Of a stretch of DNA of 43,478 nucleotides, positions 5,556 to 43,005 are shown piece after piece. Every line of letters begins with the position of its first letter. The first letter of the stretch is position 1. The stretch is taken from NCBI GenBank assembly GCA_011526015.1, contig WYBG01000401.1:1-43478 (forward strand). Reading direction: 5' to 3'. Origin of the DNA: Deltaproteobacteria bacterium. Lineage in GTDB: Bacteria > Calditrichota > Calditrichia > RBG-13-44-9 > J075. A program made the position numbers and the translations under genes. A model generated the notes under the pieces. The model was given only the letters and a program-made list of their open reading frames with translations, was not told the origin of the DNA and did no database searches.

Positions 5556-5590
5556 GCAGCAAGCAGCAGGCAGAAAGCAGTAGGCAATGT
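5556..5590. repeat. Phased heptamer array (GCAGNAR word), 5 units
   Basis: Five contiguous 7-nt units (GCAGCAA, GCAGCAG, GCAGAAA, GCAGTAG, GCAATGT) are followed by a short inverted counterpart (TGCCTGC, near 5623-5630). It lies upstream of the dodecin gene. Confidence 0.7.
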
Positions 5591-5657
5591 CTGCCGTTCA
5601 TTGCTTACAGAGCGGCGAAAACTGCCTGCTTAACCCTAAACTCCACAGGAGGTCGTC

Positions 5658-5873
5658 ATGGCGGAAAGTGTGTATAAGATCATCGAACTGGTGGGAACCA
5701 GCACGGTATCCTGGGAAGACGCGGCCAAGAACGCGGTCGATCTGGCCAGCAAAAGCCTCCGCGATCTGCGGGTGGCGGAAATTGTGAGCCTGGACCTGAA
5801 AATCGAAGATGGACGGGTAACCGCTTACCGGGCGAAAGTGAAGGTTTCCTTCAAATTCGAGGGCGACAAGTAG
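5658..5873 (+). CDS. Dodecin family flavin-binding protein
   Basis: A complete 71-residue dodecin. These small proteins assemble into hollow dodecamers that bind flavins (FMN, riboflavin) or CoA-related ligands and are thought to store or buffer them. The typical order is visible: VYKIIELVGTST, then SWEDAAKNAVDLASKSL, then LRVAEIVSLDLKIEDGRV and YRAKVKVSFKFE. A near-perfect ribosome binding site (AGGAGG) lies 7-8 nt before the ATG. Phased repeat arrays sit on both sides, so it is likely a monocistronic unit. Confidence 0.93.
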   Translation: MAESVYKIIELVGTSTVSWEDAAKNAVDLASKSLRDLRVAEIVSLDLKIEDGRVTAYRAKVKVSFKFEGDK

Positions 5874-5909
5874 AGGGCATTGGAAAAAGATATAGGGTAT
5901 GAGGTATTC

Positions 5910-5984
5910 GGAGAATGGGAGAGTGGGAGAATCGGAGAACGGGAGATCCAAGTCTCCGTTTCTCTCGCGCTCCCATTCTCCGAT
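5910..5984. repeat. Phased octamer hairpin (GGAGAATG word)
   Basis: Five exact 8-nt steps at 5910-5949 (GGAGAATG, GGAGAGTG, GGAGAATC, GGAGAACG, GGAGATCC) are followed after 3 nt by four inverted steps at 5953-5984 (TCTCCGTT, TCTCTCGC, GCTCCCAT, TCTCCGAT). A second, outer pair of arms surrounds it (about 5891-5908 with ATAGGGTATGAGG, and 6025-6045 with TTATACCCCATGCCC), so the whole gap folds as a nested imperfect hairpin. Confidence 0.8.
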
Positions 5985-6006
5985 TCATCTTTTCAAATTT
6001 TCATTT

Positions 6007-6024
6007 GTCAGGTGATCGTACACC
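6007..6024. repeat. 18-nt dispersed motif GTCAGGTGATMGTACACC, copy 1
   Basis: It is identical at 17 of 18 positions to 42087-42104. In both places it directly abuts the right arm of an octamer-type hairpin. Confidence 0.65.
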
Positions 6025-6102
6025 TTATACCCCATGCCCTATTCCCCTCCACCCGTTGCCTCCACACCCATTTGACCCCCATTCCCCCAGAGGAGAGAAC
6101 GC

Positions 6103-6828
6103 ATGCGCAGAGAAATTCACAATTGGTGGAGCCACCGTTTGCAAAAGGAGATGCCTATTGCGGTGTACGGCCATTACGGATTCGCGGTGCTCATTTTTCC
6201 CACCGCCGCGGCGGATTTTTTGGAACTGGAGCGCTTCCAGATGATCCACGTGCTCGCCCCGTTGATCGAGAGCGGCAAATGCAAGGTCTTTTCCATCAAT
6301 ACTGTGAACAGCGAAAGCTGGCTGAATAGCCACATGAATCCCTACGACAAAGGGGTGCGGCACCAGGCATTCAACGAGTACGTGGTGGAGGAGGTGGTTC
6401 CTTTCATTCATGACGACTGCAAAGGGCTGGTTCCGATCATCACTTCCGGCGCTTCCGTGGGGGCGCTGCACGCCGCCAACAGCTTTTTCCGCCGCCCGGA
6501 TATTTTCTCCGGCGCTATTGCCATGAGCGGGATTTACGATCTGCGCTATTACACTAAAGGGTATTTCGACGACAACGTCTATTTCAACTCTCCGGCGCAC
6601 TATTTGCCCGGCTGGAATGATGAATATATGTTGAACAAAATGCGCGAGGGCAAAATCGTTATTGCCTCCGGCCAGGGCGATTACGAAGACCCCGGCGCCT
6701 CCGTCTATCTCTCCAACATCTTGAACAGCAAAGGCATCAAACACTGGCTGGATTTGTGGGGCCAGGACATGCGCCACGACTGGCCCACCTGGCGGCAAAT
6801 GCTGCCCTATTTTATCAGCAAGATGTGA
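6103..6828 (+). CDS. Putative esterase (esterase D/S-formylglutathione hydrolase-like alpha/beta hydrolase)
   Basis: A 241-residue cytoplasmic alpha/beta hydrolase of the PF00756-like esterase group. The nucleophile elbow is GASVGA with Ser118. The acid is probably Asp in ASGQGDYED, and the His is in RHDWPTW close to the end. The conserved context (FSGAIAMSGIYDLRYY after the elbow) matches proteins annotated 'esterase family protein'. The natural substrate cannot be inferred. There is no signal peptide. The ATG at 6103 has GGAGAG 7-10 nt upstream. It stands alone between repeat-filled gaps. Confidence 0.8.
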   Translation: MRREIHNWWSHRLQKEMPIAVYGHYGFAVLIFPTAAADFLELERFQMIHVLAPLIESGKCKVFSINTVNSESWLNSHMNPYDKGVRHQAFNEYVVEEVVPFIHDDCKGLVPIITSGASVGALHAANSFFRRPDIFSGAIAMSGIYDLRYYTKGYFDDNVYFNSPAHYLPGWNDEYMLNKMREGKIVIASGQGDYEDPGASVYLSNILNSKGIKHWLDLWGQDMRHDWPTWRQMLPYFISKM

Positions 6829-6954
6829 ATTATGGGAAGATTTTAGATTTCGGATTACGTTTCCACCCATGATCTGCAATCTGGTATCGCATCCGAAATA
6901 ACTTGAGTGTAACAAAACCGTTTTGCCTGCTCCTGTTACCTGCCGCTGCCCCTG

Positions 6955-7956
6955 TCAGTTTTCTTCCTTGGCATCCCGGGTCATCAGCTCCGCAACGGCA
7001 TCGTGCGGGCGTTTATCATCGAAAAGCACCCGGTACACCTGCCCGGAAATGGGCATTTCCACCCCTAATTTTTCGGAAAGCTGGTGCACCGAGCGGGTGG
7101 TTTTCACTCCTTCGGCGACCATTACCATGCCGTCCAACACTGCTTTGAGGGTTTTCCCCCTCCCGATCTCTTCCCCCACGTAGCGGTTGCGGCTGTGCTT
7201 GCTCATGCAGGTCACGATCAAATCGCCGATGCCGGACAGTCCCGCGAAGGTCTCCGGCTGGGCGCCCATTATCACTCCTAAGCGGCTGATCTCCGCCAGT
7301 CCCCGGGTGAGCAGCGCCGCTTTGGTATTGTCGCCGAACCCGGCCCCGTCGCAAATCCCTGCGGCAATGGCAATCACGTTTTTCAAGGATCCCCCGCACT
7401 CTACCCCGATGATGTCGGTACTGGAATAGACCCGGAAATAATCGCTGCGAAACAGTTCCCGCACCCGCCGGGCGGTGTTCAGGTCGCCGGAAGCCGCCAC
7501 CACCGCGGTGGCGATTCCCCGGCTGACCTCTTCGGCGTGGCTGGGGCCATAGAGGGAGGCGATTTGCTTCTCCGGCAGCGCGAGGGTTTCTGAGATCACC
7601 TCGGACATCCGCTTTAGCGTATCATTCTCGATCCCTTTGGCCACGTTGACCAGGTACTGGTCTTTGCGTACGAATCCGGCAATCTGGCCGCACACACTGC
7701 GCATGGCGTGAGAGGGCACCGCCATGATCAAAAATCGGGCGGAAGTGACCGCCTCCTGCAAATCGCCGATCAATTTTAACTCGGCGGGCAGGGGGACGCC
7801 GGGCAGGTAACGCGCGTTCACCCGTTCAGCTTGCATCGCGGCTAAAATTTCCGGTTCATACACCCACAGGGTAACCGGGTAGCCTTTTTTCGCCAGCAGA
7901 ATGGCCAGGGTGGTTCCCCAGCTTCCCGCGCCGATTACGGAGATGGTTTCGGGCAT
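6955..7956 (-). CDS. gpsA: NAD(P)H-dependent glycerol-3-phosphate dehydrogenase
   Basis: Reduces dihydroxyacetone phosphate to sn-glycerol-3-phosphate, the backbone for phospholipid synthesis. At 333 residues it is full-length. The Rossmann motif VIGAGSWGTTLA starts at residue 5. The substrate and catalytic motifs are VAKGIEND, LYGPSHAEEV, GVECGGSLKNVIAIAAG with the catalytic Lys, and GFGDNTKAALLTRGLAE. It is on the minus strand, separated from the upstream purC gene by an octamer hairpin, so it is probably a separate transcript or depends on readthrough. Confidence 0.95.
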   Translation of the reverse strand: MPETISVIGAGSWGTTLAILLAKKGYPVTLWVYEPEILAAMQAERVNARYLPGVPLPAELKLIGDLQEAVTSARFLIMAVPSHAMRSVCGQIAGFVRKDQYLVNVAKGIENDTLKRMSEVISETLALPEKQIASLYGPSHAEEVSRGIATAVVAASGDLNTARRVRELFRSDYFRVYSSTDIIGVECGGSLKNVIAIAAGICDGAGFGDNTKAALLTRGLAEISRLGVIMGAQPETFAGLSGIGDLIVTCMSKHSRNRYVGEEIGRGKTLKAVLDGMVMVAEGVKTTRSVHQLSEKLGVEMPISGQVYRVLFDDKRPHDAVAELMTRDAKEEN

Positions 7957-7976
7957 GGCATTTTCCTATCTGGTTA

Positions 7977-8064
7977 TTTGGCGATTTGGTGATTGGGCGA
8001 TTGGGCAATTTGGCGATTGGGTAAACGATAACTCAATCACCAGATCACTCAATCGCCAAATCCC
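7977..8064. repeat. Phased octamer hairpin (TTTGGCGA word)
   Basis: Six 8-nt steps at 7977-8024 (for example TTTGGCGA, TTTGGTGA, TTGGGCGA) are followed by four inverted steps at 8033-8064 (TCAATCAC, CAGATCAC, TCAATCGC, CAAATCCC). It fills the gap between the end of purC and the start of gpsA. The array at 12711-12774 uses the same word. Confidence 0.8.
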
Positions 8065-8071
8065 CTGAACA

Positions 8072-9594: not shown

Positions 9595-9716
9595 ACGATT
9601 TTACTCCAATCAACCAGCGTTCCAATCGCTGCCTGCGACCTTTTTTTATCTTGCGCGTAATGAAAGACCTCGTCGGTAAGAATTTTCTGTAGTTGATCTA
9701 CAGATTGATAGCCCAT
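9591..9716 (-). CDS. 41-residue ORF resembling the N-terminus of a type II restriction endonuclease, probably truncated
   Basis: A short frame between the two methyltransferase genes. It has a perfect Shine-Dalgarno (GGAGGT) 5 nt before its ATG, overlaps the end of the upstream methyltransferase and shares ATGA with the next gene, so translation is very likely. The product begins MGYQSVDQLQKILTDEVFHY and contains AIGTLVDW. This recalls, from memory, the front of some type II nucleases (pattern D-E/V-F-x-Y-x-x-D-x-K-K ... A-L-G-T-L-V-E). A full nuclease would need some 200 more residues, so I read it as a remnant whose body was lost. It could instead be a genuine small protein. Confidence 0.55.
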   Translation of the reverse strand: MGYQSVDQLQKILTDEVFHYAQDKKRSQAAIGTLVDWSKIV

Positions 9717-10882
9717 CCGTTACCTCCGATTAATATTTGCGTGCTCGCACTCTTCCCCAACCACGATTTTACCTCATTCAGAATGATTTCAATGTATGAA
9801 GGCTCTTTTTCGATCAAAACAAAACGCCGGCCTGATTTTACGGCCGCTTTTCCGGTAGTACCGATGCCCGCAAAAGGATCGAGAACCACGTCTCCTTTGA
9901 ATGAATAATAAGCGATGACTTTTTCTGCCAGCTCTAACGGGAATATGGCCGGATGCCTTTTATCATGGGCGGGTTTGATTTTCCAGACGTTGGTTTTTTC
10001 ATATTCATCATCGATTCGGGACTGCTTGACGATCTCCGGTTCAGGGTGGGCGCGAATATTCCAATCAATCAGCTTATCGCTCTCCTTGCGGTAAACCAGG
10101 ATATATTCCGTAACCGGCACGGGTTTGTACTGTAACGGATTCCGGTCGGCTGCAAACCGCCGCCCTCTCCCGGTGGCCCAGCCGGCGCCTTCCGGTTTTA
10201 CCCAGATAATGTCATCCACAAATTCATACCCTTCTTCGATAAAAAGCCGGTGCATGTCAAAAGGAACCGCGATCCTTTTGGATGACTGATTTCGATGGCT
10301 TCTTCGGATCAATACCGGCGAAACATTCATCACGAAAAAACGCCCTTCGGCTAAAATGCGATGTACTTCCCGGATGATTTTGCGAATCTTTAAAAGATAC
10401 TCTTCATAATCGAGGTAATCGTTGTATTCAGGGCGAGCATTAAAATAGGGCGGCGAAGTGAATACTAAATCTATAGATTGAGCGGGCAAATCTTGAAGTA
10501 TCTCTTCACTATCGCCTGAAGCGATGGTATTTCGTAAACTCGATAATGTGTATTGTCCGTTCCTTTTCTTTTTTTTCTTTGCCAAAGAATCATTTCGACC
10601 CAGTAAACGCGCTTCCAATGTATTTGCATCGGTTGATTTATCTTGAAGTATTAACGAGGTTCTGGCGTCGATTACAATTTCCCCCACGTGCTCCTGGCTG
10701 GTTTTATGAAGGATCGGAACCCGCCACACATGATAGCGATCATCAATTTCCGGCAACCCAAAATCGATTGCATTTTCCAATTGCGCTCTTTTAAGCCAGA
10801 CAAACGCCACCTCTTTGGCGGATTGCACGTTTATCACCGAATAATTCCGCCGTTCGGCGACGGTTTTATTTGCAGGCTTCAT
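9698..10882 (-). CDS. Beta-class DNA methyltransferase with SPPY motif, R-M island 2
   Basis: 394 residues. Motif IV is LVFTSPPYFNARPEY (about 139-153) and motif I, VVLDPFAGIGTTGKAA, is at about 332-347, followed by RRFVLIEKEPSY. This is beta-class order, and the SPPY variant is typical of, though not exclusive to, N4-cytosine enzymes. Residues 1-110 form an extra N-terminal domain (KEVAFVWLKRAQ ... VGEIVIDARTSLILQ) and a Lys-rich linker that I do not recognise. It is first in the order methyltransferase, 41-aa ORF, Dam-like gene, purC, all overlapping. The cognate nuclease appears lost, so the enzyme may act as an orphan methylase. Confidence 0.85.
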   Translation of the reverse strand: MKPANKTVAERRNYSVINVQSAKEVAFVWLKRAQLENAIDFGLPEIDDRYHVWRVPILHKTSQEHVGEIVIDARTSLILQDKSTDANTLEARLLGRNDSLAKKKKKRNGQYTLSSLRNTIASGDSEEILQDLPAQSIDLVFTSPPYFNARPEYNDYLDYEEYLLKIRKIIREVHRILAEGRFFVMNVSPVLIRRSHRNQSSKRIAVPFDMHRLFIEEGYEFVDDIIWVKPEGAGWATGRGRRFAADRNPLQYKPVPVTEYILVYRKESDKLIDWNIRAHPEPEIVKQSRIDDEYEKTNVWKIKPAHDKRHPAIFPLELAEKVIAYYSFKGDVVLDPFAGIGTTGKAAVKSGRRFVLIEKEPSYIEIILNEVKSWLGKSASTQILIGGNGWAINL

Positions 10883-10946
10883 AACCGTTCAAACTCCCAG
10901 GTTTTGCATAATTTAATCATAATAACCCCGTATCCCCAAATAAAGC

Positions 10947-11050
10947 TGAATAGATGAATGGCTAAATGGTTAAATTGCCCAATTGCTAAATTGTTATCCA
11001 ACCCTTCAACATTCAGCTATCCAACCATTTAACCATACAGTCATCCATTA
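10947..11050. repeat. Phased octamer hairpin (TGAATGGC/TAAATTGC word), 13 steps
   Basis: Six 8-nt steps at 10947-10994 (such as TGAATGGC, TAAATGGT, TAAATTGC) run straight into seven inverted steps at 10995-11050 (such as ATTCAGCT, ATCCAACC, ATTTAACC, ATCCATTA), with no break in the 8-nt register. The last three bases are the stop codon (TTA on this strand) of the Gx-transporter gene. The word is nearly the same as at 41783-41830. Confidence 0.85.
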
Positions 11051-11581: not shown

Positions 11582-11936
11582 GATGCACGGGAATGTAGAT
11601 GAGAATTTTCTTAGGCACGCAGACGATCATTTGCCCGGGGCGGGAAATCGCTCCCATTTTGATGCATATTTTCTGCACACAGTCATTCCTGATGATGGCG
11701 AGATGGCCGCCGCCGGCCGCAACCTGTACCGGGGGATGAAATTCATCCAGCTCATATTGCCGGTTGAGTTTCAGATCGATCCGGTATTTTACCTCCCCGG
11801 CAATTTCTACCAGCGCAAGGTTATCTCCCGCGGCAGAAGAAGCGATAATCGACCGGTAAAACCAGGCCGCGCTGAGCAGCGCCAGCCAAAACAGAATATC
11901 ACCGATTTTGAACAGCGCCAAAACGTTCTTTTTCAT
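11544..11936 (-). CDS. NusG domain II-containing membrane-anchored protein
   Basis: 130 residues: one N-terminal membrane anchor (about 8-28) and an exported NusG-II domain (PF07009). Its hallmark is CVQKICIKMGAISRPGQMIVCVPKKILI, quoted in spirit: a Cys-x4-Cys pair, the GAI-x-RPGQ turn, then a third Cys before the P(N/K)K strand. The domain is usually encoded next to the Gx transporter, as here, and related domains occur near Rnf-type and FMN-binding systems. The biochemical role is unknown. Confidence 0.8.
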   Translation of the reverse strand: MKKNVLALFKIGDILFWLALLSAAWFYRSIIASSAAGDNLALVEIAGEVKYRIDLKLNRQYELDEFHPPVQVAAGGGHLAIIRNDCVQKICIKMGAISRPGQMIVCVPKKILIYIPVHHGTKKSVKAITG

Positions 11937-12355: not shown

Positions 12356-12703
12356 TCACTCTTTACTGCACGCCGTCACCCAACCGGAATCGGCGCTGGT
12401 GAACACCCAGTCGCCGTCGCGCGATCCTAACACGCTGACGCCGTCCGCCGCCACCCGGGCTCTCAAGTAACCGGAATTGGATTGTTTCCGGACTGTAATG
12501 CACACCGGAAGTTGGTAGTCCGGCCCCCTGGGAGGTATTTGAAGAAACTCATTGCCAAAACCGCTGATGGTTTCCTCGTTTACCTGCGCTTTCCAATGGG
12601 TATCGGACTGAATCTCCGCCACGTATTCGATATCATGCTCCAGCGGGCAGCCCGGTAAACAGAAGGCGGCTGCGATGAATAAAATTTTGGCGGCTTTTCT
12701 CAT
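12356..12703 (-). CDS. Hypothetical lipoprotein
   Basis: 115 residues. The N-terminus is a lipoprotein signal: basic MRKAAK, a hydrophobic stretch, then the lipobox LPGC with Cys19. The mature part is beta-rich (HWKAQVNEETISGFGNEFL ... GYLRARVAADGVSV) with two further Cys. I recognise no family. It probably sits in the envelope. An octamer array lies directly in front of the start codon. Confidence 0.6.
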   Translation of the reverse strand: MRKAAKILFIAAAFCLPGCPLEHDIEYVAEIQSDTHWKAQVNEETISGFGNEFLQIPPRGPDYQLPVCITVRKQSNSGYLRARVAADGVSVLGSRDGDWVFTSADSGWVTACSKE

Positions 12704-12710
12704 ATGGTTA

Positions 12711-12774
12711 TTTGATGATTTGGCGATTTAGCGATTTATGGAAGCGCTCACTCACCCCATCGCTCAATCACAAG
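12711..12774. repeat. Phased octamer hairpin (TTTGGCGA word), second site
   Basis: Four 8-nt steps at 12711-12742 (TTTGATGA, TTTGGCGA, TTTAGCGA, TTTATGGA) are followed by inverted-like steps to 12774 (ATCGCTCA, ATCACAAG). It runs from just upstream of the lipoprotein start into the stop codon of the next gene (TCA at 12768-12770 on this strand). Confidence 0.7.
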
Positions 12775-14251: not shown

Positions 14252-14285
14252 AACGCAGAGTGGTAGTTATTATTCAGCCATTCTT

Positions 14286-14357
14286 GAAATGGCAAAACCA
14301 TTGGATGGCAAAATAATTCAAAAATCATTTTGTCATGGAATCATTTTGCCTTTTGAA
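14286..14357. repeat. Phased octamer array (CATTTTGC / GGATGGC word)
   Basis: Nine consecutive 8-nt steps. The first half has GAAATGGC, TGGATGGC and AAAATAAT types; the second half reads the complement (CATTTTGT, CATGGAAT, CATTTTGC). It occupies the gap between the voltage-sensor-like gene and the convergent serine hydrolase gene. Confidence 0.65.
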
Positions 14358-19476: not shown

Positions 19477-19567
19477 GACCAGCTTTCAGCGACCAGCGGT
19501 CAGCTTTCAGCCGGTTGTCAGTTGATAGCGGATTGCTGACAACTGAAAGCTGACCGCTTTCAACTGA
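19477..19567. repeat. Phased heptamer hairpin (TTTCAGC word)
   Basis: Five 7-nt steps at 19477-19511 (GACCAGC, TTTCAGC, GACCAGC, GGTCAGC, TTTCAGC) and, in the same register, inverted steps at 19533-19567 (TTGCTGA, CAACTGA, AAGCTGA, CAACTGA). It lies 7 nt after the subunit IV stop, between two oxidase genes. Confidence 0.85.
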
Positions 19568-19614
19568 CGGCTTCTTCAAACCACAAAAATTTTTAAGGCC
19601 CAAGAGGAAAACCT

Positions 19615-21455: not shown

Positions 21456-21541
21456 GATTGAAGATTGAAAATCGAAGATTGAAGTTTTTTTACGCAATAC
21501 GCAATACGTAATGCGTAATACGTAACTCGTAATCTGTAATT
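21456..21541. repeat. Two adjoining phased heptamer arrays (GATTGAA and CGTAATA words)
   Basis: Four 7-nt steps at 21456-21483 (GATTGAA, GATTGAA, AATCGAA, GATTGAA), a T-run, then seven perfect 7-nt steps at 21493-21541 (CGCAATA, CGTAATG, CGTAATA, CGTAACT, CGTAATC, TGTAATT types). It starts 3 nt after the ctaB stop. The second word is the same as at 23799-23897 and 35815-35894. No inverted arm is present here. Confidence 0.85.
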
Positions 21542-21573
21542 CCTTTCAATTCGAACACAACGGAGATGATGAT

Positions 21574-23095: not shown

Positions 23096-23803
23096 ATGGT
23101 TTCATTCCCTTATAAAACCCTCTCGATTATCGATCTGCACCGTCGGTCCTACCGGCCGGTGTGGGATTTCCAGCGCCGGCTGCAACAGTTGCGGATCGAT
23201 CAGGAAATCCCCGATACGCTCATTTTCGTGGAGCACGACCCGGTTTACACCATCGGGAAGAACGGTTCGGATCTGCACGTGATCGCCTCGGGGGAATTTC
23301 TGAAAGAAAAAGGGATCGAAGTGGTACACGTGGATCGCGGCGGCGACGTGACCTACCACGGCCCCGGCCAACTGGTCGGTTACCCGATCTTCGATCTGCA
23401 TCAGCACCGCCAGAGCGTTTCTTATTTTATGCGCCAACTGGAACAGGTTTTCATCGAAACCCTGGCGGAATGGGGGTTGCAGGGCAGCCGGATGGAAGGC
23501 TACACCGGGGTGTGGATCGGGGATGAGAAGATTACCGCCCTGGGGGTGCGCATTTCCCGCTGGGTAACCATGCACGGCTTCGCTTTCAACGTGAATACTG
23601 ATCTGAGCCATTACGCCGGGATCATTCCCTGCGGCATTTTCCACAAGGGGGTAACTTCTCTGGAAAAAGAACTGGGACGCCCGGCGGACATGGAAGCGGT
23701 GAAAAAAACGGTGCTGCAATCTTTTCAAAACGTATTCGGATTTTCGGAAGTGCGAGCCGCACCGGTTGATACGGAAGCGGTGGCCAATGAAATGGAAGGG
23801 TAA
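23096..23803 (+). CDS. lipB: Lipoyl(octanoyl) transferase
   Basis: 235 residues. It moves octanoyl from acyl carrier protein to the lipoyl domains of E2 or GcvH. The family signature GGDVTYHGPGQLVGYPIFDL is intact; the nucleophilic Cys lies in the IIPCGIFHKGVTSLEKEL block with the following Lys. HDPVYTIGKNG and KITALGVRISRWVTMHGFAFN also match the family. The ATG at 23096 has AAGGA 6-7 nt upstream. The stop codon TAA is part of the heptamer array that follows. With lipA about 2.9 kb downstream, the cell has a complete endogenous lipoylation pathway. Confidence 0.95.
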   Translation: MVSFPYKTLSIIDLHRRSYRPVWDFQRRLQQLRIDQEIPDTLIFVEHDPVYTIGKNGSDLHVIASGEFLKEKGIEVVHVDRGGDVTYHGPGQLVGYPIFDLHQHRQSVSYFMRQLEQVFIETLAEWGLQGSRMEGYTGVWIGDEKITALGVRISRWVTMHGFAFNVNTDLSHYAGIIPCGIFHKGVTSLEKELGRPADMEAVKKTVLQSFQNVFGFSEVRAAPVDTEAVANEMEG

Positions 23804-23897
23804 TGCGTAATAGAAACGGAATACGCACTACGCAATAAACGTTCACTCCGTATTGCGTATTTCGTATTCCGTTACGTTTCACGCAATACGTATTACC
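23799..23897. repeat. Phased heptamer hairpin (CGTATTG/CAATACG word), 14 steps
   Basis: Seven left steps from 23799 (GGTAATG, CGTAATA, AATACGC, ACTACGC types) are matched by seven right steps at 23849-23897 (CGTATTG, CGTATTT, CGTATTC, CAATACG, TATTACC). The arms pair over about 40 nt with small bulges. The lipB stop codon is inside the first unit. Confidence 0.88.
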
Positions 23898-31665: not shown

Positions 31666-31683
31666 CCTTCCGGGTTGATAGAA

Positions 31684-31789
31684 GAGTGGAGGAGTGGATA
31701 GATGGATGAATGGAGTATTGGATGAATGGATTAATAGATGGTTCAGTTCTCCAATAATCCATTAATCCAATGATCCAGGACACCATTAT
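31684..31789. repeat. Phased octamer hairpin (GAATGGAT / ATCCATTA word), 12 steps
   Basis: Seven 8-nt steps at 31684-31739 (GAGTGGAG, GAGTGGAT, AGATGGAT, GAATGGAG, TATTGGAT, GAATGGAT, TAATAGAT as single words) and five inverted steps at 31750-31789 (TCCAATAA, TCCATTAA, TCCAATGA types). It lies inside the pnt operon, between pntAA and pntAB. Confidence 0.88.
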
Positions 31790-31836
31790 TCCAAAGTCAA
31801 TAAACTTCTGATGAAAAAACGATTGGAGGAGTTTTT

Positions 31837-33583: not shown

Positions 33584-33623
33584 AAGACCTCAAAGGTTTT
33601 GAAAACCTTTGAGGTCTTTTTTT
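33584..33623 (+). terminator. Rho-independent terminator of the pnt operon
   Basis: A 17-bp perfect stem (AAGACCTCAAAGGTTTT and its complement at 33602-33618) with one unpaired central base runs into seven T residues. The stem is AT/GC mixed and could work in both directions. Confidence 0.88.
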
Positions 33624-35200: not shown

Positions 35201-35235
35201 CATCTGTGAAAAGCATAGATTCGGGAGAGACAGCA

Positions 35236-35787: not shown

Positions 35788-35814
35788 GCCGGGAACAGTT
35801 AATGCCTGGAGTCA

Positions 35815-35894
35815 CGTATTGCGTATTCCGTATTGCGTAAAACATAATACGGAATACGAAATACGAAATACGAAATACGAAATACGGAATGCGT
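35815..35894. repeat. Phased heptamer hairpin (CGTATTG / AATACGA word), 11 steps
   Basis: Four left 7-nt steps at 35815-35842 (CGTATTG, CGTATTC, CGTATTG, CGTAAAA) and, after 3 nt, seven right steps at 35846-35894 (AATACGG, four AATACGA, AATACGG, AATGCGT). It lies between actA and actB. Confidence 0.9.
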
Positions 35895-35941
35895 AAACCG
35901 AGTCAATCAACCGAGTGAGTAATCCGAAGCGAGGAAACTCC

Positions 35942-38830
35942 ATGAATAGACGTGATTTCTTGAAATTCGTAGGAATGGCTTCCAGCGCTACTGTCCTGGC
36001 CTCCTGCGGCGTTCAGCGGAGCAATGAAAGGCTCATCCCCCTGCTGCTGCCCGCCGAGGAAGATTACCTGCCCGGGGAGGCGATGTTCAAGCCCTCCGCC
36101 TGCACCGAATGCCCCGCCCACTGCGGCGTCTCCGTCAAACTGGTCGAATATAACCCCATCAAATTAGAGGGACTGGAGAACCACCCCCTGAACGACGGCG
36201 CGCTGTGCCTGCGCGGGCAGTCTTCTTTGATGCGCTTATATCATCCCGCGCGAATCCGCGGTCCCCTGCGGGGGAGGCAGTACGAACTGGTGTTAGACCA
36301 GATGTCCGGCAGCCCCTTTCAACCCGTTTCCTGGGAAGAAGCCTACCAATTGCTGGCCGATAAAATGAAAGAAGCAGCGCAGGCCGGGCGGAAAAACGTC
36401 TATTTATCCGGCAGAACCAGCGGCTCTCTTTCGGTTTTGATCGATGAATTCTGCCGCGCCGCCGCGGTGGAGCGCCTCCCGGAATACGAAGCGTATTCCC
36501 ATGCTAACCTGCGGGAAGCCTACAACCTGCTCTTCGGAAGACGGGAAATACCCGCCTACAACATCGAAAATAGCGACTTCCTCTTGACCGTGGGCGCAGA
36601 TCTGCTGGAAACCTTTATCTCCCCGGTGAATTACGGGGTGCAGCTCCGGCGCGCCCGGGAGCGCCAGCCCCGCTTTCATTGGATGCACCTGGAACCGCAC
36701 GCTTCCCTCACCGGCTTCAAGGCCGGCCAGCGTTTGACCCTCAAACCGGGCAGCGAACCGTTTTTGCTGAGCTACCTGTTGAATTTCATTATTACCAGCA
36801 ACCTGACGGAAAATGGTCTCCCGGATACGGTGCGGCAGGCGATTCCCCGGGTAAACCTGGCCCAGGCCGCGGAAAAAACCGGCATCGCGCAGGAAAAGAT
36901 CAATGAAATTACCCAGCGCCTTGCCGCGGCCCAAAATCCCCTGCTGATTGCCGGCGGGGTTTCCGCCATGCAGGCCAACGGGTTGGAAACTGCCCTGCTG
37001 GCCGGGCTGGTGCAATGGGCTACCGGCATGGCCGGCTCCACGGTGGATTTCTCCCGGGCGGAGGATTACGCCCGGGTGGGAACCCTGAACGATATGGAGA
37101 ATCTGTCCCGCCGCCTCGACGGGGGTGAAATCGGGGTGGCCTTTGTCTCCCGAACCGATCCCCTGCTGAGCACCGTTCCCGCCGGTCTGCAATTAGGCGA
37201 GCGCCTGAAAAAAGCCGCTTTCCGGGTAGCTTTTACCGATATTATGGCCGATGAGCACGTCAAAGCGTACGCGGACGCTTATGACCTGATCCTTCCCCTC
37301 TCGCACGGCTTCGAGAGCTGGGGAGACGTGGAGCCGCGCAAAGGGCTGGTGAACGTATTGCAGCCGGCGCTGCGCGAAACGCTCTTCGATACCCGCAGCG
37401 AAGGCGATATTCTGTTGAGCTTGAGCCAGATTGCCCGGGGGCAGCAGCCCTCCCTGGCTTACAAAGATTGGCTGACGGCGCAATGGAACAAGCGCTTTGG
37501 GGAAGCCCGGGTCGCGGAACTCCTGAAACAGGGATACAGCGCGGAGACCGTTCCGCCCGTCACGGTGGCCCTGAACGCTGCCGGAACCGCCGCTTTCTTG
37601 CGCGGGGCGAAGTTCGACGTCCCCGCCGCCGGCGCGACGCTCTACGTAATGCCCTCCATTCGCTCTTTTGACGGGCGCAGCAAAGTTCTGCCCCTGGCCA
37701 CGGAAATTCCCGATCCCCTCACCACCATCAGCTACGGGACCTGGGTCTCGATGCCGGAAGCTTCCGCCCGGGAACTGGGAGTGTCCGATAAGACCCTGGT
37801 GCACAAGCAGCGCGATGAGGTGCAGTTGGAAGCCAACGGGGCCGCCGGGAAATTCGCCGCCATGGTGCAGCCGGGGTTGCCGGAAAACGTCTATACCGTG
37901 CAGCGGGAGCAAATACCCGCGGCCATGCAGGCCTACGATCCCCGCAGCGGCGAGGCCCTGGCGCGCATCGACGGAGCGGCGCTTTCCAAAACCGGGGCCA
38001 CCCGGCCCCTGGCGATTTTGGCCGGCGCGTTGGAGCAGGGACAGCGCAACATCATCCCACGCGGGCATGAAGAGCACAAACACGGGCAGGAATACCTCAA
38101 AGGGGATGAAACCCTCTACCCGCAGCCCAATCACCCTCTCTATCGCTGGGCGATCTCCGTGGACCTGGAGACCTGCACCGGCTGTTCCGCTTGCGTGGCC
38201 GCCTGCCACATGGAAAACAATATCCCCTGCGTGGGCGAAGAAGAACACATTCGCGGCCGGGAGATGTCCTGGATTCGGGTGCAGCCCTATTACCACGAAG
38301 ACGGCGGAATGGACCACCTGATAATGATGTGCCAGCAGTGCGATTTTGCCCCCTGCGAAAACGTCTGCCCGGTGTTCGCAACCTACCACAACGACGAAGG
38401 CCTCAACGTAATGGCCTATAACCGCTGCGTGGGCACGCGCTACTGCCATAACAACTGCCCCTACAAGGTGCGGCGCTTCAACTGGTTCGATTGGACCGAC
38501 CGCGGCGCCTGGCAGGAGCCGATGACCCGGATGCTGAACCCGGATTTATGGGTGCGCCCCAAGGGGGTGATGGAGAAATGCACCTTCTGCGTGCAGCGCA
38601 TTCGCCACGCCAAAGACCGGGCGAAAGACGAAAATCGCCCCGTGCGCGACGGGGAAGTTACCCCGGCCTGCGCCCAGACCTGCCCCGCCAACGCCATCAG
38701 CTTCGGCAATATTCTGGATACGGAGTCGGAAGTGTATAAAAAATCCCAATCGAAAAGAAAATTCCGGGTTCTGGAAGTATTGGGCACCGGCCCGGCGCTA
38801 CATTACTTGCGCAAGGAGGAACACGCATGA
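35942..38830 (+). CDS. actB: Alternative complex III subunit ActB (MopB-like plus iron-sulfur domain)
   Basis: 962 residues. A Tat signal (RRDFLKF at 3-9) ends in LASC, a lipobox-like site. Residues about 50-730 resemble molybdopterin oxidoreductases (ActB1); an N-terminal C-x2-C-x3-C ... C set (CTECPAHCG ... LCLRG) is present. The C-terminal ActB2 domain has four cluster motifs: CTGCSACVAACHMEN with a distal Cys, CQQCDFAPCENVCPV, GTRYCHNNCPY and CTFCVQRI ... CAQTCPANA. In known complexes this domain carries three [4Fe-4S] and one [3Fe-4S] clusters, passing electrons from the quinol site to ActA. The ATG at 35942 has GAGGAAA upstream. The stop overlaps actC. Confidence 0.95.
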   Translation: MNRRDFLKFVGMASSATVLASCGVQRSNERLIPLLLPAEEDYLPGEAMFKPSACTECPAHCGVSVKLVEYNPIKLEGLENHPLNDGALCLRGQSSLMRLYHPARIRGPLRGRQYELVLDQMSGSPFQPVSWEEAYQLLADKMKEAAQAGRKNVYLSGRTSGSLSVLIDEFCRAAAVERLPEYEAYSHANLREAYNLLFGRREIPAYNIENSDFLLTVGADLLETFISPVNYGVQLRRARERQPRFHWMHLEPHASLTGFKAGQRLTLKPGSEPFLLSYLLNFIITSNLTENGLPDTVRQAIPRVNLAQAAEKTGIAQEKINEITQRLAAAQNPLLIAGGVSAMQANGLETALLAGLVQWATGMAGSTVDFSRAEDYARVGTLNDMENLSRRLDGGEIGVAFVSRTDPLLSTVPAGLQLGERLKKAAFRVAFTDIMADEHVKAYADAYDLILPLSHGFESWGDVEPRKGLVNVLQPALRETLFDTRSEGDILLSLSQIARGQQPSLAYKDWLTAQWNKRFGEARVAELLKQGYSAETVPPVTVALNAAGTAAFLRGAKFDVPAAGATLYVMPSIRSFDGRSKVLPLATEIPDPLTTISYGTWVSMPEASARELGVSDKTLVHKQRDEVQLEANGAAGKFAAMVQPGLPENVYTVQREQIPAAMQAYDPRSGEALARIDGAALSKTGATRPLAILAGALEQGQRNIIPRGHEEHKHGQEYLKGDETLYPQPNHPLYRWAISVDLETCTGCSACVAACHMENNIPCVGEEEHIRGREMSWIRVQPYYHEDGGMDHLIMMCQQCDFAPCENVCPVFATYHNDEGLNVMAYNRCVGTRYCHNNCPYKVRRFNWFDWTDRGAWQEPMTRMLNPDLWVRPKGVMEKCTFCVQRIRHAKDRAKDENRPVRDGEVTPACAQTCPANAISFGNILDTESEVYKKSQSKRKFRVLEVLGTGPALHYLRKEEHA

Positions 38831-40203: not shown

Positions 40204-40231
40204 ATTGATGATTGATGATTTATGATTGGCA
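40204..40231. repeat. Phased heptamer array (ATTGATG word), 4 units
   Basis: ATTGATG, ATTGATG, ATTTATG, ATTGGCA start immediately after the actC stop codon. No inverted arm. Confidence 0.7.
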
Positions 40232-40251
40232 AAGACGGGATTAGCCTGAAA

Positions 40252-40289
40252 AATCGGAGTGCAAAGCGTCAGCTTTGCACTGGCCGATT
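40252..40289. repeat. Hairpin between actC and actD
   Basis: A 6-bp outer stem (AATCGG/CCGATT) and a 9-bp inner stem (GTGCAAAGC/GCTTTGCAC) with a GTCA loop. It lies inside the act operon, 13 bp before the actD ribosome binding site (AAGGAG at about 40304). Confidence 0.75.
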
Positions 40290-40319
40290 ACGTTAGCGAT
40301 TTGAAGGAGAAAATAGATC

Positions 40320-40751
40320 ATGGAATACCGGTTCGATAACAAAAAAGATTTCATGGAAAAGTTGGAAGCGCTTTTCAAAGACGGGATGCGCCTGAAAAGG
40401 ATGAAAATTTACATGCCCCATCCCGAGCACGACGTGGAACACCTGGTGGAAAAATACGAAAAGCCCAGCCGCTTGAAGTTCTTCACCCTGGTGGGCGGGT
40501 TGACCGGGTGTTTGACCGGCTTTGCCTTCACTACTTACACGGTATTCAGCTGGCCGCTGGTTACCGGGGGAAAGCCGTTCATTTCTATTCCTCCCTTTAC
40601 GGTTATTGCCTTCGAGCTGACCATCCTGTTGGGGGCGCTGTTCTCGTTTGCCGGCATCATGATCCTGGCGCGGCTTCCCAAAATCAGTAAAATGTTCGCC
40701 GAAGAGGTGCACGGGAATGAGTATATAATCATCATTGATGACGCGAGGTAA
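40320..40751 (+). CDS. actD: Alternative complex III subunit ActD (DUF3341)
   Basis: 143 residues. An N-terminal soluble part (FMEKLEALFKDGMRLKRMKIYMPHPEHDVE, given in part) is followed by two membrane helices (LVGGLTGCLTGFAFTTYTV and FELTILLGALFSFAGIMIL). This matches ActD, a structural subunit at the membrane interface. AAGGAG is placed about 12 nt upstream of the ATG. actF follows after 2 nt. Confidence 0.93.
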   Translation: MEYRFDNKKDFMEKLEALFKDGMRLKRMKIYMPHPEHDVEHLVEKYEKPSRLKFFTLVGGLTGCLTGFAFTTYTVFSWPLVTGGKPFISIPPFTVIAFELTILLGALFSFAGIMILARLPKISKMFAEEVHGNEYIIIIDDAR

Positions 40752-40753
40752 GA

Positions 40754-41785
40754 ATGCAGATATCCAGAACCATCCTCATCGGGGCGTATGCCGGCTGCGC
40801 CCTGCTCATTGCGATATTGGAATGGACTTTCGCCGAGAGCGGCTCGCTGATGTATTCCATGCTCTTTTTCGTGGCCCTGTCCCAGGGGCCGTTGGCGATT
40901 GTGGCGGCGGCGGACATTTCCCGTTCCGATTGGCTTCGCGCGTACCGCCGGGAGTTGCTCTCGGTGCGCCACATGATCCTCTTTGTTACCCTGTTATTTG
41001 CTATTTTTGCCGCCAGCGGCAAAGTGAGTCTGTACGGTTGGACCAAACACCCCAACGCCTGGCTGAACCCGCAATTTTTTATCATCCGGAATATTGTTTT
41101 GCTGCTGCTGGCCTGGCTGGTGGCCAATCGCTTCGCCCGGGAATCCCTTAATGACGGGCCCCGCAAAACCACGTGGGCGATTTTCTGGGTTATCACCTTC
41201 GTGGCCAGCCAGACCATCGTCGCCTTCGACTGGGTAATGTCCCTGGATTACCCCTGGATCAGCACCCTGTTCGGGGCTTATTTCTTTGTGGAAGCGTTTT
41301 ACGCCGGCCTGGCCCTGGCGGCGATTATGACCTACTTTAACCATCACAATTTCGTGGAAGAGTTCAGCGAAAAAACCTTCCAAAAAAGCCAGATGGATAT
41401 GATGACTATGTTTTTCGGGTTCAGCATCTTCTGGGGTTACCAGTTTTTCTCCCAGTACATCGTCATCTGGTACGGCAACATTCCCGAAGAGGTGGCTTAC
41501 ATTCAATATCGCTTGAACGAATATTCCGCGCTGCTCTACCTGGTTATTCTGATGCTCTTCCTGGTTCCCTTCGTGCTCATGCTCTCCCGGAAAATCAAAG
41601 CGAATCCCCGGCTGGTTATGCCCCTGGGTTTTTGGGTGTGGGGCGGGATTTTGCTGGAGCGCTATTTCATGATCGGCCCGCACCTGAATTTGCACCCCCT
41701 CATCGCGCCGGTGGAGCTTATTCTTGCCGCGCTGGTCTTCCTGGTTACGCTTTTATATACCCGCCGGGCGGCGCTGGCGGGATGA
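40754..41785 (+). CDS. actF: Alternative complex III subunit ActF (NrfD-like membrane protein)
   Basis: 343 residues with nine or ten membrane helices, a short paralogue of ActC. Recognisable blocks are YGWTKHPNAWLNPQFFIIRN, TIVAFDWVMSLDYPWISTLFGAY-type text (shortened) and GFSIFWGYQFFSQYIVIWYGN, and these match ActF. In known complexes it forms the second half of the membrane core. GAGGTAAG is located 5-6 nt before the ATG. In the usual order actE (monoheme cytochrome c) lies between actD and actF; here it is absent. An octamer array begins on its TGA stop. Confidence 0.93.
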   Translation: MQISRTILIGAYAGCALLIAILEWTFAESGSLMYSMLFFVALSQGPLAIVAAADISRSDWLRAYRRELLSVRHMILFVTLLFAIFAASGKVSLYGWTKHPNAWLNPQFFIIRNIVLLLLAWLVANRFARESLNDGPRKTTWAIFWVITFVASQTIVAFDWVMSLDYPWISTLFGAYFFVEAFYAGLALAAIMTYFNHHNFVEEFSEKTFQKSQMDMMTMFFGFSIFWGYQFFSQYIVIWYGNIPEEVAYIQYRLNEYSALLYLVILMLFLVPFVLMLSRKIKANPRLVMPLGFWVWGGILLERYFMIGPHLNLHPLIAPVELILAALVFLVTLLYTRRAALAG

Positions 41786-41830
41786 ATGGTTGGATGGTTA
41801 AATGGCTAAATTGTTAAATTGTTAAATTGT
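41783..41830. repeat. Phased octamer array (TAAATTGT word), left arm
   Basis: Six 8-nt steps: TGAATGGT, TGGATGGT, TAAATGGC and three TAAATTGT. The first three bases are the actF stop codon. The matching right arm is split: 41831-41848 and 42102-42128 (ATTCAGCC, ATTTAACC, ATCCATTT). Confidence 0.85.
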
Positions 41831-41848
41831 CATCTTAACCATTCAGCC

Positions 41849-42101
41849 TGTCTTATCACGTGGTCTCTGACAATTCGGCGAGTATCAAGTAGCGGCGACT
41901 CCCATTCCCCTCCTGGGAGGGGATTAAGGGGTGGGTCGGTGGGTCAAGGAGGGCGAACATTACCCAACTTTAAGGAGATTTCGCCAACTCCGCCCGGGAA
42001 TTTACCCACCCCCAACCCCTCCCAGGAGGGGAGTTTCTACAAGGCGCTCCGCAGATTCTCATGGCGAAGCCATCCCTTTGGGATAGGTCAGGTGATAGTA
42101 C
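41849..42101. mobile_element. 253-bp inverted-repeat (MITE-like) insert flanked by an 11-bp direct repeat
   Basis: ACCATTCAGCC occurs at 41838-41848 and 42102-42112, immediately flanking this segment. Removing the insert with one copy restores a right arm that pairs well with the octamer array at 41783-41830. The ends are imperfect inverted repeats (GTCTTATCAC at the left; GTACTATCAC read inward from the right). Inside, two palindromes in mirror order, CCCCTCCTGGGAGGGG (41907-41922) and CCCCTCCCAGGAGGGG (42016-42031), lie in a longer inverted pair with ACTCCC and GGGTGGGT parts. There is no transposase, so any movement would be in trans. Confidence 0.6.
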
Positions 42102-42104
42102 ACC
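42087..42104. repeat. 18-nt dispersed motif GTCAGGTGATMGTACACC, copy 2
   Basis: It forms the right end of the 253-bp insert and its junction with the direct repeat. Copy 1 is at 6007-6024. Confidence 0.65.
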
Positions 42105-42128
42105 ATTCAGCCATTTAACCATCCATTT
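42102..42128. repeat. Displaced right arm of the octamer hairpin at 41783
   Basis: Contains the second direct-repeat copy and the steps ATTCAGCC, ATTTAACC, ATCCATTT, the same words as in the right arm of the array at 10995-11050. Confidence 0.7.
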
Positions 42129-42140
42129 ATGCCTCTATAG

Positions 42141-42170
42141 AAGCCCGATTCGCTTGAATCGGGCTTTTTT
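42141..42170 (+). terminator. Rho-independent terminator downstream of the act operon
   Basis: An 11-bp stem AAGCCCGATTC/GAATCGGGCTT with loop GCTT is followed by a T6 tract. It probably ends the act transcript after the repeat-filled gap. Confidence 0.88.
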
Positions 42171-42344
42171 ATGCCCGGAAAGCAAATCGGCGAAAAAAAT
42201 CCTTGCACAATCAGCAGCCGTTTATCATATTCCATCGTGCCTGCTTGTAGTAATACTCATCGCACGTTTGAGATTGGTGTATTCCCGGCGCCTCGTTGAA
42301 AGCTTGAAGAAGTTGTTCATACTCGTTAACCGGCAGTGCAAAAC

Positions 42345-42407
42345 TTTATCCTTTTTCTTTTTACCTTTTACCTTTTACCTTGTATTACCCTTATCCTTCA
42401 ACCTTTA
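42345..42407. repeat. Phased heptamer array (TTTTACC word)
   Basis: Clear 7-nt steps at 42345-42379 (TTTATCC, TTTTTCT, then TTTTACC three times), continuing with drift (TTGTATT, ACCCTTA, TCCTTCA, ACCTTTA) to just before the ribosome binding site of the CBS gene. No inverted arm. Confidence 0.65.
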
Positions 42408-42425
42408 TAACCCGGGGAGCCGCTT

Positions 42426-42869
42426 ATGATCAAAATCAAAGATGTTTTGGCAAGGAAAGGAGCGGAGGTGGTGACAATTCATGAAAACCAGAGCATCCAT
42501 GACGCCATAAAATTTCTGGTGCAGCACAACATCGGGGCGGTGCTGGTGCGCGACGAGGGGGGCGAGGTTGTCGGGATCGTCAGCGAGCGGGATATTCTGC
42601 GCGAGGGAAGCCGGAATAGCGATAAGTTGAAAGCGACCCCGGTTAAGACGGTGATGACCCGCGACCTGATCGTCTGCGAGCCGGAGCACACCATTGAATA
42701 CGTGGAGCAGGTGATGGTGAAGAACAACATCCGCCACCTGCCGGTGATTGCGGACAACAAACTGGTGGGAATACTCTCCATGCGCGACGTGGTGCGGGCG
42801 CGCCTGAAGGACGCGGAAGTCGAGAACCGTTACCTGCGGGAGTACATCGAGGGGAAGTACCCGGGGTGA
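42426..42869 (+). CDS. CBS-domain protein (two CBS motifs)
   Basis: 147 residues made only of a Bateman module. CBS1 (about 7-60) has NQSIHDAIKFLVQHNIGAVLV and IVSERDILREG; CBS2 (about 76-130) has HTIEYVEQVMVKNNIRHLPV and GILSMRDVVRARL. Such stand-alone pairs usually bind adenosine nucleotides or AdoMet and regulate a partner protein, which is not identifiable here. GGGGAG is 6-9 nt upstream of the ATG. The transcript is separate from the act operon, as a terminator lies between. Confidence 0.9.
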   Translation: MIKIKDVLARKGAEVVTIHENQSIHDAIKFLVQHNIGAVLVRDEGGEVVGIVSERDILREGSRNSDKLKATPVKTVMTRDLIVCEPEHTIEYVEQVMVKNNIRHLPVIADNKLVGILSMRDVVRARLKDAEVENRYLREYIEGKYPG

Positions 42870-42963
42870 GAGCTGGCGCAAAGCCCGGGGTGTACGGCGC
42901 GCGGGGCAGGAGGGCGGCGTTGCTCACGCCAGGTGTTTTTTGGCCGAAGTAAGCACTTTTTTT
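42870..42963. other. Short non-coding stretch after the CBS gene
   Basis: GC-rich at first, then TTGCTCACGCCAGGTG and a T-run at about 42957-42963. I see no gene or clear terminator stem. Confidence 0.35.
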
Positions 42964-43005
42964 AATTGCCAATTGTCAATTATCAATTGCCAATTGCCAA
43001 TTGGC
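42964..43005. repeat. Phased heptamer array (AATTGCC word), 6 units
   Basis: AATTGCC, AATTGTC, AATTATC, AATTGCC, AATTGCC, AATTGGC in perfect 7-nt register; the last unit closes a small palindrome (GCCAATTGGC). Confidence 0.85.

Follow-up and report, generated by a model that had tools for sequence, protein, structure and literature searches.

Why should so many gaps between the genes of one bacterial genome carry a short word repeated in exact 7- or 8-nt register, often with the complementary word following in the same register? We address this question starting from a 43,478-nt contig, hereafter the window (GenBank WYBG01000401.1; C311 in our numbering), of the 5.04 Mb draft genome of an uncultured Calditrichaceae bacterium (genome G000, 624 contigs). 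A sister genome of the same genus, G001, is collinear with the window, and their aligned blocks are 82-95% identical (91.6% in the longest block). A preliminary description, made from the letters of the window alone, had named 15 array sites and proposed a process that writes or maintains period rather than sequence. We find instead a small shared vocabulary of directional words, each with a conserved core and free positions. Our preferred reading, whose chances we would put somewhat below even, is that these are dispersed palindromic elements with arms made of iterated DNA recognition sites, the cores of which would be read by a putative factor.

Tandem arrays at periods 7 and 8

An array in 7- or 8-nt register is present at 14 of the 15 named sites. 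The exception is 14286, where neither Tandem Repeats Finder nor two stricter scans found an 8-nt array and a very low threshold flagged something periodic. In the window, seven segments at period 7 and six at period 8 match at 17 or more of 21 positions, against one at period 6 and none at periods 9, 10, and 11; first-order Markov sequences gave 0-0.05 segments at this threshold.

The excess of periods 7 and 8 over 6 or 9 holds beyond the window, in sampled contigs of both genomes. We scanned 40 G000 contigs picked by number (333,305 bases), of which one masked contig (2,540 bases), counted at period 2, was later excluded to leave 39 readable ones. The number-picked sample held 35 arrays at period 7, 7 at 8, 6 at 14, 3 at 16, 2 at 21, and 1 at 24, compared with 5 at period 6, 4 at 9, 2 at 10, and none at 5 and 11; a third-order Markov control gave no arrays at periods 3 to 22. 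When only intergenic arrays were counted, with genes called by our own simple gene finder, the 39 contigs plus the window gave 48 at periods 7/14/21 and 19 at 8/16, against 1 at 6, 3 at 9, and 3 at 10. The corresponding counts for the G001 sample, to which the window's collinear contig belongs, were 32 (7/14/21/28), 31 (8/16/24), 3 (6), and 5 (9). Array bases are 92.7% intergenic in G000, where intergenic DNA makes up 17.9% of all bases, and 88.4% intergenic in G001. The arrays are real and, within the sampled contigs, genome-wide. Array density in the number-picked sample was 14.2 and 4.2 per 100 kb, and by extrapolation each genome would hold hundreds of arrays.

Much rarer arrays use a 9-nt word, TAAAGTGAC, or a 10-nt word, ACACGAATGA (L044 4825-4912 and 9553-9642; L054 1809; L048 1388). 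Fewer arrays, mostly without good hairpins, were found in the sampled parts of the relatives G004, G006, and G017. In G004, a member of the same family, long near-exact arrays lie at or near contig ends (L120 9588, L121 1, L122 94 and 15292, L123 1), so that assemblies may break at arrays and arrays may be undercounted.

Recurrent words with conserved cores and free positions

The words had been taken to be unrelated between many sites. At a match of at least 0.80, however, 54 of the 67 intergenic G000 arrays (17 in a backwards control) and 45 of 63 in G001 (control 10) fit a list of 19 words, which was compiled by looking at these same two genomes. We used this threshold because 147 of 166 arrays fit at 0.66, but so did 55 of 67 reversed arrays.

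Several words recur widely when counted as overlapping pattern matches on both strands. GTGTT-NNN in four units (x4) has 123 matches in G000 and 180 in G001 (control 3) and none in the remaining 38 of the phylum; among these genomes it is restricted to the genus. AATACGN x4 has 55 matches in G000, the sole genome searched for it, and its reversed control has none. CGTAA-NN x4 is found 92 times in G000, 68 in G001, 31 in G005, 9 in G017, and 71 in G036 (where the reversed control gives 49), while in G006 the pattern gives 0 and the control 9. AATTG-N-C x4, which reads on both strands, has 81 matches in G000, 60 in G001, and a few in G004 and G005. TCTCC-NNN x4 has 36 in G000 and 0 in the other 39 genomes, its control giving 16 in G003.

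Within a word, conservation is uneven. The GTGTT-NNN profile (23 arrays, 89 units) carries 1.42-1.91 bits per position at GTGTT versus 0.28-0.37 at NNN, and conserved blocks with free positions are likewise seen in TCAGC-NN, GGAGA-NNN, AATTG-S-C, and TTCAAT-Y, arrays having been assigned to these profiles by a lenient core match. The single-base drift between units that had been described is concentrated at certain word positions; a test for uneven variation among the columns reached P<=0.05 for 32 of the 118 heptamer arrays and 5 of the 65 octamer arrays. Because a small vocabulary with conserved cores recurs across sites, the arrays do not preserve period rather than sequence.

A palindromic string, CCCTGAGCTTGTCGAAGGG, is repeatedly inserted inside TTTTCAC heptamer arrays (L028 12680-12924, with variants at L022 1300-1534). 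Similar strings occur in other bacteria.

Orientation of mirrored arms

Mirrored arms, described as usual, are common but not general. Of 193 array loci in the two genomes, some of them on contigs chosen for their AATACG arrays, 89 have periodic hairpin arms of three units or more, and four window sites (5556, 12711, 42345, and 42964) have no array-based hairpin at z -2.96 or lower. Where arms pair, most words keep one direction. Counted in pairs rather than loci, the orientations are GTGTT 43:0, TGGTT 9:0, GGAGA 8:0, TCAGC 6:0, TGGATGG 2:0, GTAGGC 1:0, AATGGNG 0:2, CGTAA 30:5, and, for the near-palindromic AATTG, 9:9, with contigs chosen for GTGTT or AATACG matches included; ten further words gave no pairs. 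The GTGTT arm is thus 5' and the AACAC arm 3' in every one of the 43 pairs. Inverted duplication of an existing array would be expected to yield both directions, whereas mirrored directional words keep one. A writer of period only, such as the repeat-writing polymerase suggested earlier, leaves this 43/43 orientation unexplained. We also considered a general rule by which the G-rich arm comes first (137:16, with 15 equal, among 168 periodic hairpins; 95:54 of 179 in an array-free control). Since this count is of loci and the rule is broken by TCAGC and the ATTC-CC word, we claim only fixed orientation per word.

Among loci compared side by side, loops differ in length; 24 GTGTT loci have no flanks or loops in common by eye, and 12 CGTAA loci have common inner AATACGN/CGTATTN arms. 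Two related viral contigs (IMG/VR; L238 6131-6250 and L248 4095-4210) carry, in the same gap, a mirrored GTGTT-TCA octamer array with GTGTT first; it sits between a stop codon and the apparent next ribosome-binding site, its left arm alike in the two contigs and its right arm diverged. Among viral contigs, GTGTT-NNN x4 was found in 68 stretches versus 33 for the reversed control.

Neighboring units and slippage

Heptamers are the most abundant intergenic tandem repeats in many prokaryotes, and the SPADE survey, in the passages concerned, offers no clear clue to their function (PMC6344855). A proposed cause of the heptamer excess among long simple sequence repeats is slippage at a 7-nt footprint of the polymerase (Mrazek 2007, cited through PMC4692102 and PMC4679880). 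The arrays here share with such repeats fixed-length tandem units and a period excess. They could be ordinary long simple sequence repeats, made by slippage favoring 7-8 nt and by template-switch copying across hairpins, with point mutation blurring the units. The strict register speaks for this origin, as do pure AATACGC runs, length changes between sisters that in some cases amount to whole units, and near-exact CGTAATT and CGTAATG arrays in the class relatives G017 and G036 (in G036 the reversed control also scores).

Slippage should leave adjacent units alike, and in the two main mirrored families it did not. Adjacent GTGTT-NNN spacers were identical at a frequency of 0.054 (n=130) in G000, compared with 0.057 +- 0.020 when shuffled, and of 0.070 (n=57) versus 0.054 +- 0.029 in G001. 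For CGTAA-NN the values were 0.224 (n=76) versus 0.255 +- 0.044 in G000 and 0.062 (n=32) versus 0.218 +- 0.064 in G001. AATTG-NN neighbors were more alike than chance in G000 (0.439, n=82, versus 0.297 +- 0.048) and weakly so in G001 (0.293, n=75, versus 0.242 +- 0.045). GGAGA-NNN gave 0 identical of 23 adjacent spacers, but its arrays are copies of one element, and TCAGC-NN had too few for the test (8 and 13). Over all arrays (230 heptamer, 135 octamer), lag-1 matches averaged 5.67 of 7 and 5.47 of 8, compared with 5.57 and 5.63 for all pairs, and were thus hardly or not above them; in arrays detected only at their fundamental period lag 1 exceeded lag 2 (5.85 versus 5.68 and 6.35 versus 5.89), as the way in which these arrays were picked would produce.

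Template-switch correction of hairpins, the other mechanism suggested at the outset, predicts variable letters shared across arms. Opposite-arm spacers matched about as often as expected by chance, however, with 17 matches versus 13.3 +- 2.7 for GTGTT and 14 versus 13.7 +- 1.9 for CGTAA. For arms that had been chosen for their match, a test of unit order in opposite arms gave a small excess (19.1 versus 16.8; P<=0.05 in 10 of 86), and we rejected this mechanism given that the direct spacer comparison showed none. We likewise rejected alternating 14- or 16-nt units: CGTAA-AA was followed by CGTAA-TG 23 times versus 10.9 expected, but the GTGTT classes do not alternate.

Since spacers match neither their neighbors nor the opposite arm beyond chance, slippage and template switching are disfavored as present makers of the GTGTT and CGTAA arrays. 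The earlier view that slippage alone does not suffice is thus upheld, and the evidence argues against GTGTT-NNN and CGTAA-NN being slippage products today. AATTG arrays and pure AATACGC runs look as though they also grew by ordinary slippage. Unlike long simple sequence repeats, moreover, the arrays are often mirrored and degenerate and are enriched at both 7 and 8. With the one-sided GTGTT orientation added, we consider slippage an unlikely account of the arrays as a whole.

A MITE-like carrier of GGAGA-NNN arrays

Miniature inverted-repeat transposable elements (MITEs), repetitive extragenic palindromic (REP) sequences, and bacterial interspersed mosaic elements (BIMEs) are small non-coding intergenic palindromes present in many copies. 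One family here resembles them. A 171-nt GGAGA element in L153 recurs at 84-100% in at least 21 places of G000 (21 of the 76 candidates were scored), including window 5918-6024, while 26 of the 33 listed matches in G001 cover only its ends. The family has inverted terminal repeats, with matching ends in several of the seven loci shown. Comparison of L063 with G001:C40 reveals an empty site for a 160-nt insert; to the eye, the flanks of this insert look like an imperfect target duplication. The carrier of the GGAGA-NNN family is a MITE-like mobile element; matching ends and an empty site are its points of likeness to MITEs as treated in the relevant part of PMC2267715. No match to the GGAGA MITE DNA was found in plasmids. 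The possibility that the arrays are ordinary copies of fixed-sequence elements is borne out in part, for GGAGA-NNN. The GTGTT family differs from MITEs and REPs in that no fixed ends or loop were seen by eye in the 24 loci compared, and array abundance bears no relation to Y1 transposase copy number. For the latter reason we rejected an origin through REP-associated tyrosine transposases (RAYTs).

Comparison with the sister genome and genomic context

Sixty-one arrays, 55 of them intergenic, could be mapped to a sister gap. In 38 of these the gap holds a 7/8 array, 35 with the same period and 31 with a similar word; of the remaining 23, ten leave a two-unit remnant, which shuffled gaps never did. 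For intergenic arrays, an array or remnant is kept at 44 of 55 sites and both are absent at 11. The same-locus comparison proposed earlier thus shows retention at most mapped sites, with some arrays lost and some changed in word. Among 32 aligned length differences, a lenient threshold marked nine inserts as containing arrays.

Divergence between the sisters is 0.155 at fourfold sites (n=14,865) and 0.156 in other intergenic DNA (n=10,685). Cores diverge less (GTGTT 15/136 = 0.110; CGTAA 15/148 = 0.101). Spacers lie above neutral (GTGTT 20/57, CGTAA 13/43), an excess that may reflect unit turnover or misalignment; 41 and 34 unaligned positions were excluded from the counts of the two families.

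In G000, 47 of 144 co-directional gaps hold an array, as do 4 of 19 gaps between convergent genes and 3 of 29 between divergent ones; the G001 figures are 40 of 119, 2 of 16, and 3 of 16. Per kb, too, divergent gaps have fewer arrays than co-directional ones in both genomes. In co-directional gaps, the array starts within 9 nt of the upstream stop in 26 of 45 cases in G000 (15.1 expected) and in 19 of 38 in G001 (11.3 expected). Tolerance of insertions at a distance from promoters would explain these biases as well as function would.

Such retention and placement raise the question of whether the arrays serve the host as regulatory sites or as sites of its nucleoid, in pairs to which a protein like integration host factor (IHF) or HU, or another, would bind. 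The closest known system is of this form, and its existence, like the heptamer literature, means that the arrays are not without named kin, as had been supposed. The figure legends of PMC2700814 describe, for Geobacter metallireducens, predicted global regulator binding sites of classes 1-3 plus a TWGTTGAY set. The units are octamers GTTGCTYN x4 (with little conservation in the two outer units), 8-9-mers TCTCCGTS[Y] x3, and heptamers MTYCTGA x5; classes 1 and 2 form opposite-strand pairs at variable distance, with 47-48 sequences each, and IHF/HU binding is a prediction (PMC2700814). Tandem 7- or 8-mers paired on opposite strands at variable distance are common to both systems, though some arrays here are unpaired, and class 2, compared by its legend consensus, has the TCTCC core of our GGAGA family. 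The host differs in phylum, however, and uses a dozen or more words where the Geobacter legends give three or four. The tests of spacer freedom, neighbor independence, turnover, and mismatches come from the present case and are absent from the Geobacter passages concerned. Host sites would account for the shared architecture, the core/spacer profile, the fixed orientation, the retention at 44 of 55 sites, and the poverty of divergent gaps. They would account less well for the loss of some arrays at about 92% identity and for the dozen or more words, and the gap classes also resemble insertion tolerance where there is no promoter. Turnover is lower once remnants are counted, which slightly raises this explanation and slightly lowers our preferred one; even so, we regard host sites as doubtful, on a par with slippage.

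Selection for hairpins in transcripts, as terminators or intercistronic stabilizers, is less probable still. Array-based hairpins folded with z -2.96 or lower, relative to shuffles, at nine of the 15 window sites, and arrays start soon after upstream stops, as such a role would suggest. On the sense strand of 199 co-directional hairpins, however, we counted 210 G.U versus 209 A.C mismatches (129 and 129 in control hairpins), which gives no support for selection on RNA pairing. No array coincides with any of the 22 terminator-like sites between 19001 and 39000, and pairing does not require a word common to many loci. Rfam gave no matches in the window at the gathering score. Promoter-like matches numbered 8 versus 10.9 expected, and one (31731-31758) overlaps an array.

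Inverted pairs of DNA uptake sequences (DUS) have a fixed orientation, and rarity in coding DNA is unlike uptake sequences. Molecular drive by a DNA import system preferring these words, as in the inverted stem-loops of DUS and uptake signal sequences (USS) in Neisseria and Haemophilus, is very improbable given the many words, the tandem register, and the rarity in coding DNA, even though stem-loop families of DUS repeats are described in the relevant part of PMC2267715.

Array sites in the window

The sites in the window, with their folding scores z, are as follows.

5556..5630: GCAGNAR heptamer array (5556-5586) with a complementary 9-bp stretch at 5622-5630; weak hairpin, z -1.5.
5889..6045: nested locus with outer 7-mer arms, TATAGGG (from 5889) and CCCTATA-type (from 6025); z -10.2.
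5908-5938 / 5953-5983: inner GGAGA-NNN octamer hairpin of the nested locus 5889..6045.
6011-6024: MITE end GGTGATCGTACACC, within the nested locus 5889..6045.
7967-8021: octamer array ATTTGGCG, mirrored arm 8034-8068; 27/35 pairs, z -6.2; same word in the sister.
10944-10996: octamer array AATGGYTA, mirrored arm 11011-11048; z -6.8.
12702-12738: octamer array GATTTRGC, short mirrored arm 12759-12769; z -1.6.
14284..14357: imperfect hairpin, not an array; 27/35 pairs, z -2.7.
19477..19575: TCAGC-NN heptamers with mirrored GCTGA arm; perfect 16-bp core 19495-19510 / 19543-19558, z -5.6.
21456..21560: nested locus with outer GATTGAA heptamers (21456-21487) closing on CTTTCAATTC; z -2.96; outer word the same in the sister.
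21491-21540: inner TACGNAA heptamers, nested inside 21456..21560.
23803..23895: CGTAA/CGTATTN heptamers, arms 23815-23837 / 23851-23873; z -4.5.
31681-31740: octamer array TGGATGAA, mirrored arm 31757-31793; 29/37 pairs, z -4.8; same word in the sister.
35812..35897: CGTATTN heptamers (35815-35839), then AATACGN to 35896; arms with 22/25 pairs, z -4.5.
40204..40227 (+ strand): lone heptamer array ATTGATG; sister gap without array or clear remnant.
41780-41830: octamer array AATGGTTA, overlapping the stop codon 41783-41785, mirrored arm 41837-41848; z -3.7.
42344..42384 (+ strand): lone heptamer array TTTTACC, no hairpin; z +0.5.
42964..43007: heptamer array AATTGNC, a near-palindromic word; z -0.8.

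At 19477, Tandem Repeats Finder reports only two 14-nt copies and the register falls under the stricter scan threshold; the regular part of the site at 23799 is 23845-23872. The z of -3.4 at 40204 is due to an adjoining palindrome, not to the array. This palindrome (40259-40280; GTGCAAAGC..GCTTTGCAC or close) is of another kind, without 7/8 register, and also occurs in a gap near L031 4960.

Sister gaps illustrate how sites change. At the nested locus 5889-6045 the outer TATAGGG arms are present in both genomes and the inside differs. The gap matching 10944-11048 has AACCATCC/AACCATTC arrays, and that matching 35812-35897 has mirrored arms of CGTAANN type. The TTTTACC array is uninterrupted in the window, and in G001 a TCAGC-NN hairpin sits inside it. 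The sister keeps a hairpin at the place of 41780-41848 but lacks the insertion next to it in the window; a perfect inverted pair of 17 bp, TCCCCTCCTGGGAGGGG (41906-41922 / 42016-42032), lies in DNA absent from that gap.

The neighboring genes encode ordinary proteins, namely cytochrome oxidase subunits, a QrcB/QrcC-like molybdopterin/iron-sulfur protein, lipoamide dehydrogenase, and glycerol-3-phosphate dehydrogenase. A 971-aa protein (35915-38830) is 95% identical to one of Calditrichaceae bacterium MAG_33, the sole relative returned by the named scan. A BanI-type restriction enzyme gene (Pfam RE_BanI) adjoins an N6/N4 DNA methylase gene at 2068-4908, and most of a second N6/N4 methylase gene lies at 9602-10803, a stretch of about 1.2 kb that corresponds to 61 nt in the collinear sister contig. 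A convincing intrinsic terminator, with a 16-pair stem and a T run, lies in a gap at 33584-33618, outside any array.

Proposed explanation

In our preferred reading, a mirrored locus would be a small dispersed palindromic element of the form (word)n - loop - (complement of word)m. The word has a conserved core of about 4-6 nt and 2-4 freer positions, so that the arms would line up similar recognition sites at intervals of 7 or 8 bp, facing the loop from both sides. A sequence-specific factor acting on DNA would read the core and ignore the spacer; it could be an enzyme that resembles a transposase and moves non-autonomous copies, or else a protein that binds DNA. Such reading would keep cores alike and orientation fixed, while loops, flanks, and spacers drift. 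We infer that families other than GGAGA are dispersed likewise and that a trans-acting factor may read their cores.

Several observations weigh against this reading. To read at least a dozen words in one genome would take many factors or a single promiscuous one, and no transposase or binding protein could be linked to the arrays; the counts of Y1_Tnp matches, 4 in G000 and 6 in G001, are lower than those in G019 (9), G016 (7), and G032 (7). The 24 GTGTT loci, inspected by eye, show no common flanks, loops, ends, or target duplications. An all-against-all BLAST comparison at E<=1e-8 gave 297 GTGTT and 507 CGTAA pairs, not inspected singly, the longest matches spanning 133-155 nt at 68-75%. Co-directional gaps hold 66 lone and 44 intermediate arrays besides 173 partnered ones. 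Turnover is modest, and the 11 of 55 sites without array or remnant fit host function as well. The divergence of cores is below neutral by no more than the choice of cores intact in G000 may itself bring about, and is no proof of purifying selection. Finally, the units of the viral GTGTT-TCA array are identical, as slippage or a recent origin would leave them.

Relation to known repeats and meaning

Comparable heptamer repeats include the short tandemly repeated repetitive (STRR) sequences of cyanobacteria. TAACTGA heptamers of Beggiatoaceae, cyanobacteria, and Bacteroidetes are patchy, dispersed, and intergenic, and their indels between sister strains are mostly 7-nt steps; as described in the relevant passages, they use one word, are mostly direct, have no predicted structure, and often stand just before start codons (PMC4679880), whereas the arrays here often stand directly after stop codons and are mirrored. 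The P6b stem of the Nostoc trnL intron is built of degenerate heptamers with free positions (class I TDNGATT, class II NNTGAGT), as the arms here are, but it is a single intron stem rather than a feature of many gaps, and the passages concerned mention no 8-nt class (PMC4476775). Among titles and abstract openings we found no description of such arrays in this phylum. The kind is thus already known and unexplained; what the present case adds is a combined 7-and-8 vocabulary with free spacers, fixed direction, and a failed slippage test.

It is possible, though rather doubtful, that these cases form a general class of bacterial elements, convergent arrays in which a core of approximately 5 nt is followed by a free spacer of 2-3 nt and recognized by an undescribed DNA factor stepping 7-8 bp. 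The class would take in the octamers of Geobacter, the P6b heptamers of Nostoc, and the GTGTT array mirrored in the two viral contigs. If so, much of the heptamer excess in bacterial gaps would consist of recognition modules or their remains, not of slippage products. Slippage is the standing idea for this excess; two sister genomes make it testable, and it fails for the two main mirrored families. Fixed orientation and the core-plus-spacer design point to a putative sequence-specific reader, and the old question of the heptamers would become testable in culturable Geobacter.

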